A DNA stretch of 38,542 nucleotides from an uncultured Holophagaceae bacterium (GCA_903839205.1 CAIMBM010000271.1:1-38542); one strand, 5' to 3'. Shown: positions 8,762-34,626, counted from the stretch's first letter. A program made the numbers and translations. The notes: generated by a model not told the origin, from the sequence alone.

Positions 8762-8784
8762 TCCGGGCCCCCCCGGACCGGATC
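8760..8784. repeat. Overlapping small hairpins between convergent kinase and phosphatase genes
   Basis: GATCCGG (8760-8766) pairs with CCGGATC (8778-8784), and within it TCCGGG (8762-8767) pairs with CCCGGA (8772-8777). This is the whole 21-bp gap plus the stop codons. There is no T-tract, so if it ends transcription it does so weakly. Confidence 0.35.
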
Positions 8785-10711
8785 AGCGCCTCAGGATGAG
8801 CAGGGTCAGGTCGTCGGCAAAGCTGCGCCCCTGGGCGAAGGCCACCGCGTCCGCGAGGATGGCCGCCTGCAGGTCCTCCGCGGGCTTGCCGAGCAGGCTC
8901 GCCAGGCGTTCCTCCCCGTACAGGCTGCCATCTGGCGCCTGGGCCTCGGTCAGGCCATCGGTGTAGAACACCAGGCTGTCCCCGGGCTCTAGAAGGCCCT
9001 CGCAGGGCTCCAGTGCCTCCTTGAACCGGCTGGCGCTGAGGCCCACGCCCAGGCCCCGGGGGTGCAGGCGGAGGACCGGGCCTCCGGCGCGCCGCAAAAA
9101 GGCCGGCGGGTGCCCGGCCCGCACGAACCGGTAGCGTCCCGTCGCCGGGTGGAAGGTGCCGTAGACCAGGGTGAGGAACAGTCGGCGTCCGTGCCCCTGG
9201 CACCAGATGGTATTCAGGCGGTCGGCCACCTCCAGAGGATCGAGGACCTGCTTGTCCAGGGCGGACAGCACGCCCTTGGTCTCCGCCGCGTAGAAGGCCG
9301 CGCTGGTGCCCTTCCCGCTCACGTCCGCGATGAGGAAGGCCAGGCCCCCGTCCGCCAGGGGGAAGACATCGTAGTAGTCCCCGGCCACCTCCCGGGCCGG
9401 GAGGATGCTGGCTCGCACGCAGGGCACCCCCAGGGCCTCCAGGTCCGGCAGCAGCCGCATCTGCACCTCCCGGGCGACCCGCAACTCCTCTTCCATCCGC
9501 AGGCGTTCCCCCTTCTCCGCATCCGCGGTCTGGAGACGGACGGCCATCTCGTTGAAGGCTTCGGTCAGCTGGGTGACCTGGTCCCGCCCCCGCGGCCGGA
9601 TGCGCGTGTCGAAATCGCCGTGGGTCAGGCGGAGCACCCCCCGGTGCAGTTCGTTCACCGCTCGCCCCAGCGACCAGGCCAGGCTGAGGCCCATCAGGGT
9701 GGCGATCGCCTGGGCCACCAGGAGCCCCATGAGGATCAGGGCCACCACGACGATGGCCTTCACCGCCCCTTCGGACATGGCCTGGCCTTCGGCGGACTTG
9801 TAGCCTGCAAATAGCCAGTAGAGGTTGGTCTCGGGCGTGGCCGTCAGCACCAGGGCACGGCCCGTCTTCCAGTCGAGCAGGGTGAAGGCCTGGGGCGGCA
9901 GGTCGAAGGGGCGGAAGAGGCCGGATCCAGCCAGGGGTTGGCCCTCTGCCCAACGGGCGACCTCCTGCCCAGGCCCCCCAAGGATCGGCGCCTCCCCGAC
10001 GGTGCCTCCTGCGGCCTGGACCCGGATGGTCTCCTTCTCGCCTGCCTTCAACTCCCGCCTGGGAGTGATGCGGAACTGGATCCTGCCGCCGGATCGGCCC
10101 TGGGTACGCTCCCCCAGGGTGCGGAAGGGCAGCGACAGGATCCGGTAGCCCGCAGCCTCCTTCCGCACAGATCTGAGGAACAAAGGACTGACCTGCCCAG
10201 CAGCACCGGCCTCTGGGAGGTCCACCGCCATCCCCAGAAAGGTGGCCGGCACCCCTGCCGGCAGGCTCGGGACGTGCTCCGCCCGGGCAGCCCCATAGGA
10301 CCGGAGGACTTGGAGGGCCCCCGCATCCGAGGGCGCCTGGTTCGCCAGGCTGAGGGCCTCCTGCCAGGCCAAGAGGTTCTGCTGGGTGGCCCGGCTCACC
10401 TGGGCCCCGAGCCCCAGCCAGCTGGTGGCCGTCAGGAGCACGCCGAGACCCAGCACGGGCAGCACCGACATCAGGGCCAGGATCACCCAGAGTCGCCGCG
10501 ACACCCTGAAGAGCAGCTTCCGCCAGACCCACAGGAAGCCCCGCCAGAACAGCACCCAGCCGCCAAGCCAGAGCAGGCCGGTGGCCAGGCATCCACCCCC
10601 GCTGTGAGCCGTCAGCAGCAGGCCACCCAGGAACAGCACCCAGGGCAGGTCGCGGCGGAGCCTGAAGGCGGCCCAGCCTTGACGGAACAGCACCTGCACC
10701 CGGGCGAGCAT
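8783..10711 (-). CDS. Membrane HAMP-domain PP2C/SpoIIE-type serine phosphatase
   Basis: Starting at the ATG at 10711 (MLARVQVLF) gives 642 residues. The ORF track uses a GTG inside the end of fabG (10738), which I consider less likely. Hydrophobic helices occupy the first ~115 residues, followed by a probable extracytoplasmic sensor region of about 190 residues. Another helix (AIVVVALILMGLLVAQAIATLMGL) and a HAMP linker (LTHGDFDTRIRPRGRDQVTQLTEAFNEMA) follow. The C-terminal SpoIIE/RsbU phosphatase has the metal-binding motifs GDYYDVF, IADVSGKGTSAAF, FYTDGLTEA and SFADDLTLL. Such enzymes dephosphorylate STAS anti-sigma antagonists in response to a signal. It starts 7 bp after the fabG stop, so it is probably cotranscribed with fabG, and it converges on the Ser/Thr kinase gene. 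Confidence 0.92.
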   Translation of the reverse strand: MLARVQVLFRQGWAAFRLRRDLPWVLFLGGLLLTAHSGGGCLATGLLWLGGWVLFWRGFLWVWRKLLFRVSRRLWVILALMSVLPVLGLGVLLTATSWLGLGAQVSRATQQNLLAWQEALSLANQAPSDAGALQVLRSYGAARAEHVPSLPAGVPATFLGMAVDLPEAGAAGQVSPLFLRSVRKEAAGYRILSLPFRTLGERTQGRSGGRIQFRITPRRELKAGEKETIRVQAAGGTVGEAPILGGPGQEVARWAEGQPLAGSGLFRPFDLPPQAFTLLDWKTGRALVLTATPETNLYWLFAGYKSAEGQAMSEGAVKAIVVVALILMGLLVAQAIATLMGLSLAWSLGRAVNELHRGVLRLTHGDFDTRIRPRGRDQVTQLTEAFNEMAVRLQTADAEKGERLRMEEELRVAREVQMRLLPDLEALGVPCVRASILPAREVAGDYYDVFPLADGGLAFLIADVSGKGTSAAFYAAETKGVLSALDKQVLDPLEVADRLNTIWCQGHGRRLFLTLVYGTFHPATGRYRFVRAGHPPAFLRRAGGPVLRLHPRGLGVGLSASRFKEALEPCEGLLEPGDSLVFYTDGLTEAQAPDGSLYGEERLASLLGKPAEDLQAAILADAVAFAQGRSFADDLTLLILRR

Positions 10712-10718
10712 GGCAGGC

Positions 10719-11465
10719 TCAGGGCATGAGCAGCCCACCGTTCACGCTGAGCACCTGGCCCGTGACATAGCCCGCCTCCTCGCTGGCCAGGAAGACCACG
10801 GCGGAGGCGATGTCGTCGACGGTGCCCATGCGACCCAGGGGGATCTGTTTGGTGAACTCGGCCTTCACGCCCTCGGGGAGATCCGCCGTCATGGCGGTCT
10901 CGATGTAGCCCGGGGTGACGGCGTTGGCCGTGACGTTGCGGCTGGCCAATTCCCGGGCCACAGACTTGGTGAGGCCGATGAGGCCGGCCTTTGCCGCCAC
11001 GTAGTTCGCCTGGCCCGGGTTGCCCATCTGGCCCACCACGGAGGCGATGTTGATGATCCGCCCCCAGCGCTGCTTCATCATGGGCTTGGTGGCTGCCTGC
11101 ATCGCGGCCCAGGCTCCCTTGAGATTCGTGTTGATCACCGCGTCCCAGTCCTCTTCTTTCATCTGGATGAGCAGCTTGTCGCGGGTGATCCCGGCGTTGT
11201 TCACCAGGATGTGGATGGCGCCGTGGCGCTCCACCGTCGTGGCCACCGCGGCCCTCACCGAGGCGCCGTCCGAGAGGTCGGCCACCGCCACATCCGCCTT
11301 GCCGCCCTCCGCCGCAATGGCGTCCGCCACCTCCTGGAGCTTTCTCAGGGTGCGCGCGGCGCAGACCACGGTGGCTCCCTGGGCCGCGAGCTGCTTCGCG
11401 ATGGCTGCACCGATGCCCTGGCTGGCACCGGTGACGAGAGCGACCTTGCCGTCAAGGCGGAACAT
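10719..11465 (-). CDS. fabG: 3-oxoacyl-[acyl-carrier-protein] reductase
   Basis: The 248-residue short-chain dehydrogenase carries out the NADPH-dependent reduction of 3-ketoacyl-ACP in fatty acid elongation. It has the nucleotide-binding TGASQGIG (12-19), NNAG (89-92) and the catalytic serine (S142), tyrosine (Y155) and lysine (K159) in the SVVGQMGNPGQANYVAAKAG block. That block is typical of FabG, as are the TRDKLLIQMKEEDWDAVINTNLKG segment and the C-terminal GQVLSVNGGLLMP. A GGAGG-type RBS precedes the ATG at 11465. It is unusually far (about 10 kb) from the plsX-fabD cluster in this window and is followed by a signalling phosphatase gene. Other SDR functions cannot be wholly excluded, but the motif set is strongly FabG-like. 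Confidence 0.92.
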   Translation of the reverse strand: MFRLDGKVALVTGASQGIGAAIAKQLAAQGATVVCAARTLRKLQEVADAIAAEGGKADVAVADLSDGASVRAAVATTVERHGAIHILVNNAGITRDKLLIQMKEEDWDAVINTNLKGAWAAMQAATKPMMKQRWGRIINIASVVGQMGNPGQANYVAAKAGLIGLTKSVARELASRNVTANAVTPGYIETAMTADLPEGVKAEFTKQIPLGRMGTVDDIASAVVFLASEEAGYVTGQVLSVNGGLLMP

Positions 11466-30919: not shown

Positions 30920-31855
30920 ATGTTCATCGTCACCGGGGGTGCGGGATTCGTGGGAAGCAACCTGGTGCGGGAGCTGAACCGGCGTGGCCACACAGATATC
31001 CTCGTGGTGGACAACCTCACCCACCCGGAAAAGGCCCGCAACCTGGCGGACCTCGTCCTATCGGACTACATGGACAAGCGGGAATTCAGGACCAGGCTCG
31101 ACGCCGGAACCCTGGATCTGCGCCCCGAGGCGGTGTTCCACAACGGCGCCTGCTCCGACACCATGGAAGCGGATGGGCGGTACATGATGGAGAACAACTA
31201 CGGGGACTCGAAGGCCCTCCTCCACTGGTGTCTCGCGCGGAAGACCCCCCTCGTCTATGCCAGCAGTGCCGCCACCTACGGAACCAGCGCCTCCTTCGAG
31301 CCCGTGCCCGAGAACGAAAGACCCCTGAACGTCTACGGCTACTCCAAGCTGGCCTTCGACCAGCATGTGCGCAGCCTCCTGCCCGCCATCCAGAGCCCCG
31401 TGGTGGGCCTGCGCTACTTCAACGTCTTCGGTCCCCGGGAACACCACAAGGGCCGCATGATGTCCGTGCTGCACCGGCTCCTGCGCCAGCTGAGGGAGGC
31501 GGGTGTGTGCCGGCTGTTCCGCGGCACCGACGGCTTCGGCGATGGTGAACAGCAGCGTGATTTCATCTACGTGGGCGACATCGTGGCCATCAACCTCCAC
31601 TTCAGTGGCGGCACCATGGTGAAGGGCATCCTGAACGCCGGGACGGGCCGCGCCCGCAGCTTCAACGACATCGCGAAGACCCTCATCGCCCACCTCGGGC
31701 AGGGGCGCATCGACTACATCCCCTTCCCCGATGACCTGCGCGGCAAGTACCAGAGCTTCACCCAGGCCGACGTGCGCAGCCTTCGCGCCGCGGGCTACGG
31801 GGCGCCGTTCACTCCGCTGGAGGCCGGCATCGCCGCGACCCTGGCTGACCTCTAG
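30920..31855 (+). CDS. hldD: ADP-L-glycero-D-manno-heptose 6-epimerase
   Basis: HldD converts ADP-D-glycero- to ADP-L-glycero-D-manno-heptose, the heptose donor for the LPS core. The 311-residue SDR enzyme begins MFIVTGGAGFVGSNLVRELNRRGHTDILVVDNLT, with TGGAGFVG (5-12) for NADP. It has VFHNGACSDT (72-81), the epimerase-specific substrate block, VYASSAATYG and the YxxxK pair Y139/K143 in NVYGYSKLAFDQHV. VGLRYFNVFGPREHHKGRMMSVLHRL and GEQQRDFIYVGDIV are also characteristic. A GAGGAG RBS precedes the ATG. Its TAG stop shares bases with the stop of the convergent phosphatase gene (CTAG). Together with the GT9 gene it shows that this organism makes heptose LPS. Confidence 0.95.
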   Translation: MFIVTGGAGFVGSNLVRELNRRGHTDILVVDNLTHPEKARNLADLVLSDYMDKREFRTRLDAGTLDLRPEAVFHNGACSDTMEADGRYMMENNYGDSKALLHWCLARKTPLVYASSAATYGTSASFEPVPENERPLNVYGYSKLAFDQHVRSLLPAIQSPVVGLRYFNVFGPREHHKGRMMSVLHRLLRQLREAGVCRLFRGTDGFGDGEQQRDFIYVGDIVAINLHFSGGTMVKGILNAGTGRARSFNDIAKTLIAHLGQGRIDYIPFPDDLRGKYQSFTQADVRSLRAAGYGAPFTPLEAGIAATLADL

Positions 31856-33018
31856 GCGTTTCGGTCCAGGATCACCAGGGTCACGTCGTCCATGAACTGC
31901 GCCGGATGATTGTAGGCCCGGGCCTGGGTGATGACGGCGTCCGCCGCCTCTTCGGCTCCTCCGGGCAATTCCGCGCAGATGCGCCGCAGGCCTGCCTCCT
32001 CCAGCATGCTGCGGTCCTCCCGTTCCACCTCGACCAGGCCATCGGTGTAGAGGACCAGGCGATCCTCCGGCAGGAACTCGGCCTCGTAGTCCGCGAAGGG
32101 AAGCTGCCCGTCCAGCCCCAGCATGAATCCCTTGCCGCGCAGCACTTCAGAGCGCTGCAGACCTCCCCGGGTGCCGCCCACGATCCGCAGGGGGGCGCAA
32201 TGCCCGGCCACCACGTACCGGAGGCAGTTGGAGGCAGGTTCGAGATGGCCCAGCCAGGCCGTGGCGAACTGCTCAGGAAGCGTGGACCTGCAGAGGTCCT
32301 CGTTCATGCCGTAGGCCCAGGCGAGGGGATCGCCTCCGAGCCGGACCTGGTTCTCGAAGGAGGTCTTCACCATGGCCGATATGAGGGCCGCGGTGACGCC
32401 GTGGCCGCTCACGTCCGCGATCATCAGGGCCGTGCAGCCATCCGGCAGCGGGAGGACCGAGTAGATGTCTCCGCCGATGCCCGCGGCCGGAAGGTAGCGG
32501 TGGGTGTACCTGGAGCCCGGAGCCTTCCCCGGAAGCTTGGGCAGAAGGCCCATCTGGAGGGCCGCCGCCAGTTCCATCTCCTCCCTCACCCGGGTCTGGA
32601 AGGTGGTGAGCTCCCTGTTCTGGCGCTTGATCTCATTCTGCATCTCGATGAGCCGGAAGGATGAATCCACCTTGGCCAGGACTTCCTGGGCATGGAAGGG
32701 CTTGGGGATCATGTCGTCCGCGCCCAGGGACAGGCCTCCGATGCGCGAGGCCGTCCCGTCCAGGGTGGACAGGATGATGAAGTAGATGTCGCGGGTGGCG
32801 GCTTCGCTCTTGACGCGCTTGCACAGCTCATCCCCCGTCATCCCGGGCATGCGCAGGTCCGAAATGATGAGGTCGGGCCTGGAGCGACCCATTTCTTCCA
32901 GGGCTTCCAGGCCATCGCCGGCGGTTAGAACTTGGTAGCCCGCTCGCTTGAGATAGAAGCTGAGAATATCCCGGATGGGTGCTTCATCGTCCACCACCAG
33001 GACCGTGCCCTTGGCCAT
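31852..33018 (-). CDS. Response regulator with PP2C/SpoIIE-type phosphatase output
   Basis: I place the start at ATG 33018 (MAKGTVLVVDDEAPIRD); the track's upstream 134 residues read the STAS gene in the wrong frame. The 388-residue protein has a receiver (1-~125) with D10/D11, phospho-acceptor D54 in IISDLRMPGM and K106 in IPKPF. A coiled linker (MQNEIKRQNRELTTFQTRVREEMELAAALQMGLLP) follows, then a SpoIIE/RsbU phosphatase with GGDIYSVLPL, IADVSGHGVTAALISAM, VLYTDGLVEVERED and FMDDVTLVIL. Phosphorylation of the receiver should control dephosphorylation of a STAS protein, and the STAS gene is 17 bp upstream. No good RBS is visible, so translation may be coupled. Confidence 0.93.
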   Translation of the reverse strand: MAKGTVLVVDDEAPIRDILSFYLKRAGYQVLTAGDGLEALEEMGRSRPDLIISDLRMPGMTGDELCKRVKSEAATRDIYFIILSTLDGTASRIGGLSLGADDMIPKPFHAQEVLAKVDSSFRLIEMQNEIKRQNRELTTFQTRVREEMELAAALQMGLLPKLPGKAPGSRYTHRYLPAAGIGGDIYSVLPLPDGCTALMIADVSGHGVTAALISAMVKTSFENQVRLGGDPLAWAYGMNEDLCRSTLPEQFATAWLGHLEPASNCLRYVVAGHCAPLRIVGGTRGGLQRSEVLRGKGFMLGLDGQLPFADYEAEFLPEDRLVLYTDGLVEVEREDRSMLEEAGLRRICAELPGGAEEAADAVITQARAYNHPAQFMDDVTLVILDRNA

Positions 33019-33035
33019 GTGCCGAGACGGGCCGG

Positions 33036-33374
33036 TCAGGCGCCGCGGAGAGCGTCCTGCTCCGTGGCGAAGATGGAGAAGTAGTTGGTGAGATTGGTCT
33101 GGTCGAAGGACTTCTTCACCGTGGCGGGCAGGCAGCACAGGTGCAGCTTCCCGCCGGACTTGTCCACGCTGTTGCGGGCGGCGACCAGGAGGCCGAGCCC
33201 GGAAGAATCGATGAAGCTCACACCCTCGAGGTTGATGGCGAGGAGCTTCGGCTGCGCGGTGGCCACCGTCTCGCGGATCACGTCGCGCAGCTGGGCGGTC
33301 ACCTCGAAATTGACCTTGCCCTGGATGGACACCACCGAGGCGCTGCCTGATTGGCGGGTCTGGATGTTCAACAT
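33036..33374 (-). CDS. STAS-domain anti-sigma factor antagonist
   Basis: The 112-residue protein is a single STAS domain: MLNIQTRQSGSASVVSIQGKVNFEVTAQLRDVIRETV, then NLEGVSFIDSSGLGLLVAARNSVDKSGGKLHLCCL. The D-S-S-G-L-G motif (56-61) contains the serine that partner kinases phosphorylate in SpoIIAA/RsbV proteins. Its ATG lies inside the stop of the RelA/SpoT-like gene (ATGTTGA). A near-perfect Shine-Dalgarno (AGGAGGAAGC-ATG) is encoded in that gene's last codons, so coupling is very likely. The neighbouring receiver-SpoIIE protein is the expected phosphatase. An anti-sigma kinase and sigma factor are not in this window. Confidence 0.93.
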   Translation of the reverse strand: MLNIQTRQSGSASVVSIQGKVNFEVTAQLRDVIRETVATAQPKLLAINLEGVSFIDSSGLGLLVAARNSVDKSGGKLHLCCLPATVKKSFDQTNLTNYFSIFATEQDALRGA

Positions 33375-34537
33375 GCTTCCTCCTGAAGGATTCCCTGAAG
33401 CACTCTCCGCCGGGCGGCATCCCGCTGGCGCTGTTTGTATTCTGAATGCGATGCCGGACCCGATCGTGAGCTTTGAAACCCCGATTGTTCCATTACTTGG
33501 ACTTCGTGTGCGAAGAAGAAAGTAAACTCCTCCTGATCCTGGAGCAACTCTGGAATGCGGACAAGGTCCGACAACTCAGAGTCTCCCATAGTCTGAAGCC
33601 GTTCCTGGAGGGTTTCCAGGGCCCTGGTGGCGGGACTCGGCAGCCGGACCAGCGTGCGGGCCGTGAACTGGATGGCGGAGTAATCGTTGCTGGAGAATGG
33701 GTTCTGGTCCTTCGACGGGGACTTCAGGGCCAGGGTACGGCTCAGCGCCTTCCGTTCCTCCGGTCCCAGGTCCTGGATCCGGAAGTAAGGGGGCATGGTC
33801 TCGCTCCAGGCAGCCAGGGCCTCCATATCGATCATCAGGTTCCGGCTCCGGCTCGGCTTGATGTGGGTGGGCATCAGGACGTGGTGGTCCAGGAGGAACC
33901 GGATGACCATGAGGACCCCGAGCTGATCTTCGGCCACGAACCGGATGCCGATCTGGTCGTAGATGGTCTCGGCCACATTCTCGGGCTTGTGGAGCATCTT
34001 CAGGAGCATGGAGACGCGGTCCTTGTTCTCCTTCCGTTCCACAGCCAGCAGGGGCACCTCGTAGGCCCCCCGCAGGCACCAGCGATCCTCCTCACAGACC
34101 AGGTACTGGTCATAGCGGCCGAAGACCTGAGCCTGGATTTCCGGCAGGAAGCGGAGGTTCACGTTGTGATCCACGTGAAAGAGGGTGTGCATCACCCGCA
34201 GGACCGCGCAGGACCACCTGGCCCGGTTGTCCCGGGGACGGTCCGAAGCCCAGACCAGCAGCTCAAGAGGGTCCTGCAGGTCGCGCACTTCCAGGGGTAC
34301 GTGGAGGCTGGTGCCCTCCAGCACCACCGCCTCCAGGAAGTCCACCGCATCCTCGTAGATCCGCATCACGGCAGTGCGCTGGACCGGAACGCCCATGTCG
34401 TAGCCGTAGTTGAGGGCGAAGTTCCAGGCCTCCCCCGGGGAATGGATCCGCAGGGAGTCCAGGTCGATGGGAGAACCGCCCCCCAGGATCACCTGCGTGA
34501 CTTCGGGTGGCATCGGGAACATGGAATGGGGAGTCAT
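33368..34537 (-). CDS. Divergent RelA/SpoT synthetase-like protein (possible nucleotide pyrophosphotransferase)
   Basis: The likely start is ATG 34537 (MTPHSMFPMPPEV), giving 389 residues; the track's extra 168 residues overlap atpE in another frame. The N-terminal part is helical, with RARWSCAVLRVMHTLFHVDHN (105-125). A segment then matches landmarks of the RelA/SpoT synthetase fold: NKDRVSMLLKM (K172-x3-S176-x3-K180-M), NVAETIYDQIGIRFVAEDQLGVLMVIRFLL (D194-x4-R199), SAIQFTARTLV (287-297), and FFFAHEVQVME with E345-x-Q347. These correspond in order to K-x3-S-x3-KM, IYD-x-x-x-R-x-x-V, the H/Y-x-S-x-H/AIH strand and EVQIRT of RelA. From memory it also resembles uncharacterised deltaproteobacterial families TIGR04552/TIGR04562; I could not verify this. 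No HD hydrolase, TGS or ACT domain is present. Activity is unproven. Confidence 0.6.
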   Translation of the reverse strand: MTPHSMFPMPPEVTQVILGGGSPIDLDSLRIHSPGEAWNFALNYGYDMGVPVQRTAVMRIYEDAVDFLEAVVLEGTSLHVPLEVRDLQDPLELLVWASDRPRDNRARWSCAVLRVMHTLFHVDHNVNLRFLPEIQAQVFGRYDQYLVCEEDRWCLRGAYEVPLLAVERKENKDRVSMLLKMLHKPENVAETIYDQIGIRFVAEDQLGVLMVIRFLLDHHVLMPTHIKPSRSRNLMIDMEALAAWSETMPPYFRIQDLGPEERKALSRTLALKSPSKDQNPFSSNDYSAIQFTARTLVRLPSPATRALETLQERLQTMGDSELSDLVRIPELLQDQEEFTFFFAHEVQVMEQSGFQSSRSGPASHSEYKQRQRDAARRRVLQGILQEEAC

Positions 34538-34575: not shown

Positions 34576-34609
34576 AAAGAAACGGGGCGCCCAGATCCTG
34601 GACGCCCCG
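34576..34609 (-). terminator. Rho-independent terminator after atpE
   Basis: On the minus strand CGGGGCG and CGCCCCG (34609-34603 and 34589-34583) pair. The inner CCAG/CTGG pair extends the stem around GAT, and TTTCTTT follows. It ends the atpZIBE transcript and insulates the RelA/SpoT-like operon from it. Confidence 0.8.
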
Positions 34610-34626
34610 CATGGACCCGGAGGGAC

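Follow-up and report, generated by a model that had tools for sequence, protein, structure and literature searches.

The alarm molecule (p)ppGpp signals starvation, and STAS-type proteins serve as on/off switches that usually control sigma factors. A literature search found no paper covering both alarmone synthetases and STAS domains. In Pseudomonas aeruginosa, the STAS protein HsbA binds a diguanylate cyclase, HsbD, and the c-di-GMP output is set by HsbR phosphorylation of HsbA (PMC6482189). Pseudomonas modules of the RssB-RssC type likewise combine a receiver-PP2C protein with a STAS protein. Here a three-gene locus is described on a contig of a Geothrix-like member of the Holophagaceae (Acidobacteriota), whose named relatives are Geothrix and Holophagaceae assemblies of 76–97% identity; the window referred to below is the whole stretch of this DNA that was analysed, 38,542 nucleotides long.

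The locus encodes a divergent RelA/SpoT-synthetase-like protein (P0001, the product of gene 1), a STAS protein (P0002) and a receiver-SpoIIE phosphatase (P0003). As in the HsbR-HsbA-HsbD system, a receiver-PP2C protein would set the phosphorylation of a STAS protein that would bind a second-messenger synthase, here an arrangement proposed from the genes. The two systems differ in the synthase, which is a diguanylate cyclase there and RelA/SpoT-like here, and in the kinase, as the receiver protein of Pseudomonas has its own kinase domain, whereas the present unit is kinase-less. As to the RssB-RssC-type modules, P0002 is a classical STAS protein and P0003 can be aligned with NF045505 from end to end, at 131 bits, below the 700-bit cut-off of that model, so that by the NCBI cut-off it is not an equivalog; in the present locus, moreover, an enzyme gene precedes the STAS gene. 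We propose, with a probability of roughly 45%, that P0001 is a pyrophosphokinase-like enzyme and that the co-encoded STAS protein gates it by binding, and it is from homology and gene arrangement that we infer both catalysis and coupling.

Layout of the locus

On the minus strand the order is atpB, atpE, a terminator-like hairpin, gene 1, the STAS gene and the receiver-SpoIIE gene, with the following features:

33368..34537, minus strand: gene 1, encoding P0001, a divergent RelA/SpoT-synthetase-like protein of 389 aa, TIGR04562/TIGR04552 (ORF, profile matches and alignment)
33036..33374, minus strand: P0002, STAS-domain protein of SpoIIAA/RsbV type, 112 aa, DSSG at residues 56–59, predicted phospho-Ser57 (ORF and profile matches)
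31852..33018, minus strand: P0003, receiver domain and SpoIIE/PP2C phosphatase, 388 aa (ORF and profile matches)
33375..33384, minus strand: Shine-Dalgarno (AGGAGG) of the STAS gene, within the final codons of gene 1 (sequence)
34582..34610, minus strand: terminator-like hairpin and T-run between atpE and gene 1 (sequence; similar hairpin in the relative L164)

Gene 1 and the STAS gene overlap by 7 nt (ATGTTGA), and 17 nt separate the STAS gene from the receiver-SpoIIE gene. The sequence-only reading from which this analysis started had described this overlap, with the STAS Shine-Dalgarno inside gene 1, together with a receiver-phosphatase third gene and a 389-residue ORF carrying K172-x3-S176-x3-K180-M181, I192-Y193-D194-x4-R199, SAIQFT and H344-E345-V-Q347, and all of these are present, SAIQFT at residues 287–292. 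P0003 matches PF07228 (SpoIIE; E 4e-41) and a receiver domain (E 7e-25), and its receiver Asp and PP2C Asp motifs are intact by eye. Its PADLOC matches lie within the receiver region and look like cross-hits. The upstream terminator of the same reading corresponds to a hairpin with a T-run at 34610–34582 (minus strand), between atpE and gene 1. The count of terminator-like sites (one, versus a shuffle expectation of 1.5) is not above chance, but the site lies directly 3′ of atpE, and L164 of the related genome G143 also shows, in the same place, a GC-rich hairpin followed by six T. The window contains one more ORF encoding a SpoIIE-type domain, at 8783–10738 (minus strand), with 37% identity to residues 143–386 of P0003.

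Kinship of P0001 with RelA/SpoT synthetases

P0001 is a full-length member of the NCBIfam families TIGR04562 and TIGR04552 (415 and 391 bits, near full length, above the curated cut-offs of 140 and 125 bits). Both families are functionless and their descriptions mention neither RelA/SpoT kinship nor STAS linkage; the sole paper that a literature search found naming either of them lists a TIGR04552 gene as one of the genes that acquired mutations when Bdellovibrio was evolved experimentally (PMC9888234). Against Pfam, P0001 gave a match to PF04607 (RelA_SpoT) over residues 172–223, with 13.8 bits (E 0.074), below the gathering cut-off of 27 bits, and no other domain was matched, the HD, TGS and ACT/RRM domains of long RSH proteins included. 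The sequence-only reading placed P0001 outside the known long and short RSH proteins; the protein was, however, already filed under the two NCBIfam families.

PF04607 is also the sole Pfam family that recurs among 12 members of 31–97% identity, being matched by 11 of them, although the best member score (24.0 bits, E 5e-5) still lies under the gathering cut-off. The match of one member, L138, covers model positions 3–111 of 113, and another, L099, weakly matches the spoT_relA model (E 0.004). When 297 Acidobacteriota genomes were searched with the TIGR04552 profile, three weak matches (E 1e-4 to 7e-4) appeared below the true members, all of them at the synthetase domain of Rel proteins of 721–750 aa; profiles from 34 Rel proteins give weak matches to the TIGR04552-type family, as do profiles of that family to Rel proteins. 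When small alignments were compared by hhalign, the three colinear segments came out correctly but at low probability. An ordered three-motif pattern, which matches 28 of the 34 Rel proteins, was absent from 50,000 shuffles of P0001 and was found in only three of 1212 non-family ORFs of at least 200 aa, all three genuine Rel proteins. Since this pattern was composed after both families had been seen, the independent evidence comes from the profile matches and from an off-register control, in which seven near-invariant residues of the last motif block were shared in register, whereas none of 20 shifts gave more than two. Shared invariance gave a weak result when tested (P 0.07); residue identity at Rel-invariant positions did better (P 0.002), with the segments, however, anchored on the motif residues.

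One may ask if the likeness of motifs is coincidental and P0001 has an unrelated fold. A PDB sequence search returned no match, P0001 alone scores below the Pfam cut-off, and structure prediction gave nothing usable: AlphaFold reached a mean pLDDT of 43 for the full-length protein, from a shallow alignment (31 sequences, 76–96% identity), which made Foldseek on the model meaningless, and of 38 for residues 150–389, again from a shallow alignment. With such low-confidence models the fold is read from sequence. Nevertheless, an unrelated fold is very improbable in view of the reciprocal profile matches, the colinearity of four motif blocks and the off-register control, and chance resemblance was rejected. 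The synthetase-domain homology put forward by the sequence-only reading is thereby supported, and TIGR04562/TIGR04552 is, judged by these profiles and motifs, a real, previously unlabelled, divergent branch of the RelA/SpoT synthetases. A functionless annotated family would in this way gain a superfamily and a testable chemistry.

Similarly to the RelA/SpoT synthetase domain (PF04607) of long Rel/RelA/SpoT proteins and small alarmone synthetases, P0001 has, in order, K-S-K, YD-x4-R, RxKD-like, YxSLHT-like and ExQ...GxxxHxxYK blocks, with the metal ligands kept:

33941..34024, minus strand: motif block 1, residues 172–199, with K172/S176/K180 (ATP side), D194 (metal) and R199 (alignment with Rel)
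33839..33850, minus strand: R230-S-R-N233, aligned to RxKD of bifunctional Rel (unforced MAFFT alignment)
33662..33682, minus strand: Y286-S-A-I-Q-F-T292, aligned to YxSLHT, with Q replacing H312 (alignment with Rel)
33434..33505, minus strand: motif block 2, residues 345–368, with E345-V-Q347 (metal), G360, H364, Y367 and K368 (alignment with Rel)

In the unforced MAFFT alignment K172/S176/K180 correspond to K243/S247/K251 of RelSeq, D194 to D264, R199 to R269, Y286 to Y308 and E345/Q347 to E323/Q325, while R230-S-R-N233 falls on RxKD. G360/H364/Y367/K368 align to the GxAAHWxYK block, and EVQIRT...GxAAHWxYK of Rel is matched without gaps over 24 residues. In RelSeq, D264 and E323 are catalytic metal-side residues, and R241 and R269 sandwich the adenine (PMC7983052). 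K172, S176, K180, D194, R199, E345 and Q347 are invariant in 12–13 members of 31–97% identity, and with them all six positions at which the sequence-only reading looked for conservation (K172, S176, K180, R199, E345 and Q347). R230, N233, G360, H364, Y367 and K368 are invariant in the family as well; the middle of RxRN varies and Y286 is F in L099.

In contrast to RelA/SpoT synthetases, P0001 of Geothrix does not keep R241 (E170), H312 (Q290), R327 (M349) and the PKxN loop, has two inserts (at ~234–278 and ~298–340) and begins with an unrelated N-terminal domain, residues 1–165, for which no match to anything was obtained. The R241-equivalent position is R in four distant members, and the H312 equivalent is Q in members except L138. 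Together, the conserved and the lost residues suggest that the ATP/metal side is largely kept and the acceptor side remodelled, so that the acceptor may not be GDP/GTP.

The loss of R241, H312, R327 and PKxN in Geothrix could also mean absence of catalysis. P0001 would then be a pseudo-enzyme, whose domain binds ATP or alarmone without pyrophosphate transfer and which acts as a nucleotide-responsive partner sequestering or releasing the STAS protein. Besides the lost residues and acceptor loop, the two inserts and the extra N-terminal domain speak for it, as does the place of gene 1 beside the STAS gene, where an outgroup has a STAS-binding kinase. Yet across 31–97% identity neither the two metal ligands nor the lysines and serine of the ATP side nor R199 vary, and dead enzymes do not usually show such constancy; we regard a pseudo-enzyme as doubtful, if well worth considering.

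The same genome encodes elsewhere a canonical long Rel of 741 aa (L107 391-2616, minus strand), with GRIKHLYGIWKKM, in which G replaces the usual synthetase serine (S247 position).

Pairing of the enzyme and STAS genes

The neighbourhood survey covered one phylum, Acidobacteriota. All 38 Geothrix-type loci (L032–L069) have the three genes together with the 7-nt overlap, the STAS gene being shortened in L040 and the phosphatase cut by the contig end in L064; the three genes are also together in three further Holophagaceae genera (L104–L106), the overlap being absent in L104. In a relatives search each of the 36 other genomes of the genus gave a match to gene 1 (in one case a fragment, cut by the contig end), and in every searched genome of the genus it is single-copy, at the same atp-operon position. 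These matches, with the mutation in evolved Bdellovibrio, make a physiological role likely.

Five class-mates of another family, at 32–35% identity, all have a same-strand STAS gene directly 3′ of the enzyme gene, and since each genome holds only 7–11 STAS domains, such adjacency in 5/5 by chance is very unlikely. The phosphatase gene does not follow the pair in these genomes, and some of the pairs lie without atp-operon context. The order atpB-atpE-enzyme-STAS of L103 is that of Geothrix, which implies that it arose early in the class. Wherever this class has the enzyme, its pairing with STAS is thus the more deeply rooted association, and the SpoIIE part of the unit is confined to Holophagaceae.

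The complete Holophagaceae genome G143 has no TIGR04552 gene, and at its atpE locus the enzyme gene is cleanly missing: atpE is followed by a hairpin, ~230 bp, STAS and phosphatase (L164 3900-4700). This locus is a natural deletion-like comparison for the synthetase-like gene. Two genomes of a third family, G037 and G039, have an RsbW-like kinase upstream of their best P0003 homologues (41% and 38%). G037 (L165 4705-6783) has a row of kinase (HATPase_c_2), STAS and receiver-SpoIIE genes, in which the kinase occupies the position of the Geothrix enzyme gene and the phosphatase is the closest P0003 homologue within that genome; in G039, 334 nt lie between an upstream kinase and the phosphatase, a gap large enough for a STAS gene. 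The layouts of G143 and the outgroup indicate that switch and enzyme are separable. Of the coupling to partner switching that the sequence-only reading had suggested, the synthetase homology and the STAS linkage, conserved up to the five distant genomes, hold, but the phosphatase is limited to Holophagaceae and G143 lacks the enzyme.

Separability raises the question whether the functions are independent, the enzyme being merely co-transcribed with an ordinary STAS/PP2C switch for an anti-sigma kinase encoded elsewhere. The STAS-phosphatase pair retained in G143 without the enzyme, the order kinase-STAS-phosphatase in outgroup G037 and the RsbW-like proteins elsewhere in the genome are what it would lead one to expect. 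However, enzyme and STAS genes stay adjacent where the phosphatase does not, down to 32% identity in 5/5 genomes, in some outside the atp operon, and four of the five distant STAS partners have no phospho-serine, which makes independence unlikely.

The sole homologue from outside the phylum, the TIGR04562 protein L138 (MW495066.1 113534-134622), has no annotated STAS neighbour, which counts against gating by STAS. MW495066.1 is a 274-kb record labelled Microcystis phage MaAM05; it carries glyS, secD/secF, gatD, mtgA and acpS and is probably bacterial DNA filed as phage. Searches of viral contigs and plasmids gave no further homologues of the gene 1 family besides this doubtful record. An overlapping two-gene layout could also be that of a toxin-antitoxin pair, in which a toxic small-alarmone-synthetase-like enzyme is neutralised by the STAS protein, and the RelA/SpoT superfamily does have toxic members (PMC12691689, PMC8832971). 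Such a pair was rejected as highly improbable: the gene is single-copy in every searched genome of the genus at a constant atp-operon site, PADLOC, PHROGs and plasmids gave no match and phages one doubtful record, and the candidate antitoxin persists alone in G143.

Proposed control of P0001

P0002 keeps the D-S-S-G phosphorylation motif at 56–59. By the D-S motif, S57 corresponds to the position that is phosphorylated in SypA (S56) and its relatives (PMC4517449). The serine aligned with S57 is replaced in four of the five STAS partners of the distant class-mates, which suggests that these are not ordinary phospho-switches. A role of the STAS protein as a binding partner, for which phosphorylation is not always needed, would fit best, and in Geothrix control by phosphorylation would be a further layer, either gained or kept.

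According to the STAS-gated reading, which we prefer, P0001 would possess a pyrophosphokinase-like domain that depends on ATP and has an altered acceptor site, its acceptor perhaps other than GDP/GTP, and the co-encoded STAS protein would gate its activity through direct binding, as the HsbA-HsbD precedent suggests by analogy. In Geothrix, phosphorylation of its receiver would lead the receiver-PP2C protein to dephosphorylate STAS Ser57. A kinase of RsbW type, whose gene lies elsewhere, would restore the phosphate, and P0001 would be bound by either the phosphorylated or the unphosphorylated STAS protein. In this model we infer catalysis, the acceptor, a physical contact with STAS, the direction of control and the kinase involved. 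Synthetase homology, invariant metal- and ATP-side residues, operon layout, translational overlap and the deep enzyme-STAS pairing argue for it; the lack of a confident structure and of a PDB match, the enzyme-less STAS-phosphatase pair of G143 and the kinase-less unit argue against it.

The locus thus points to a control route for RelA/SpoT-type enzymes via a phospho-switchable STAS protein. More tentatively, TIGR04552 may represent a new alarmone-type pyrophosphokinase class with an acceptor other than GDP/GTP, switched by STAS partners and not by ribosomes or its own regulatory domains; it would then be a branch of partner switching that works through nucleotide messengers, as HsbA-HsbD does.

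No RsbW-type kinase was found within or adjoining the three-gene unit, and two small RsbW-like ATPases elsewhere in the genome are candidates for it. A separate cluster of STAS, RsbW-like ATPase and SpoIIE phosphatase is also present elsewhere in the same genome (L166, G000:C278:15000-21500).
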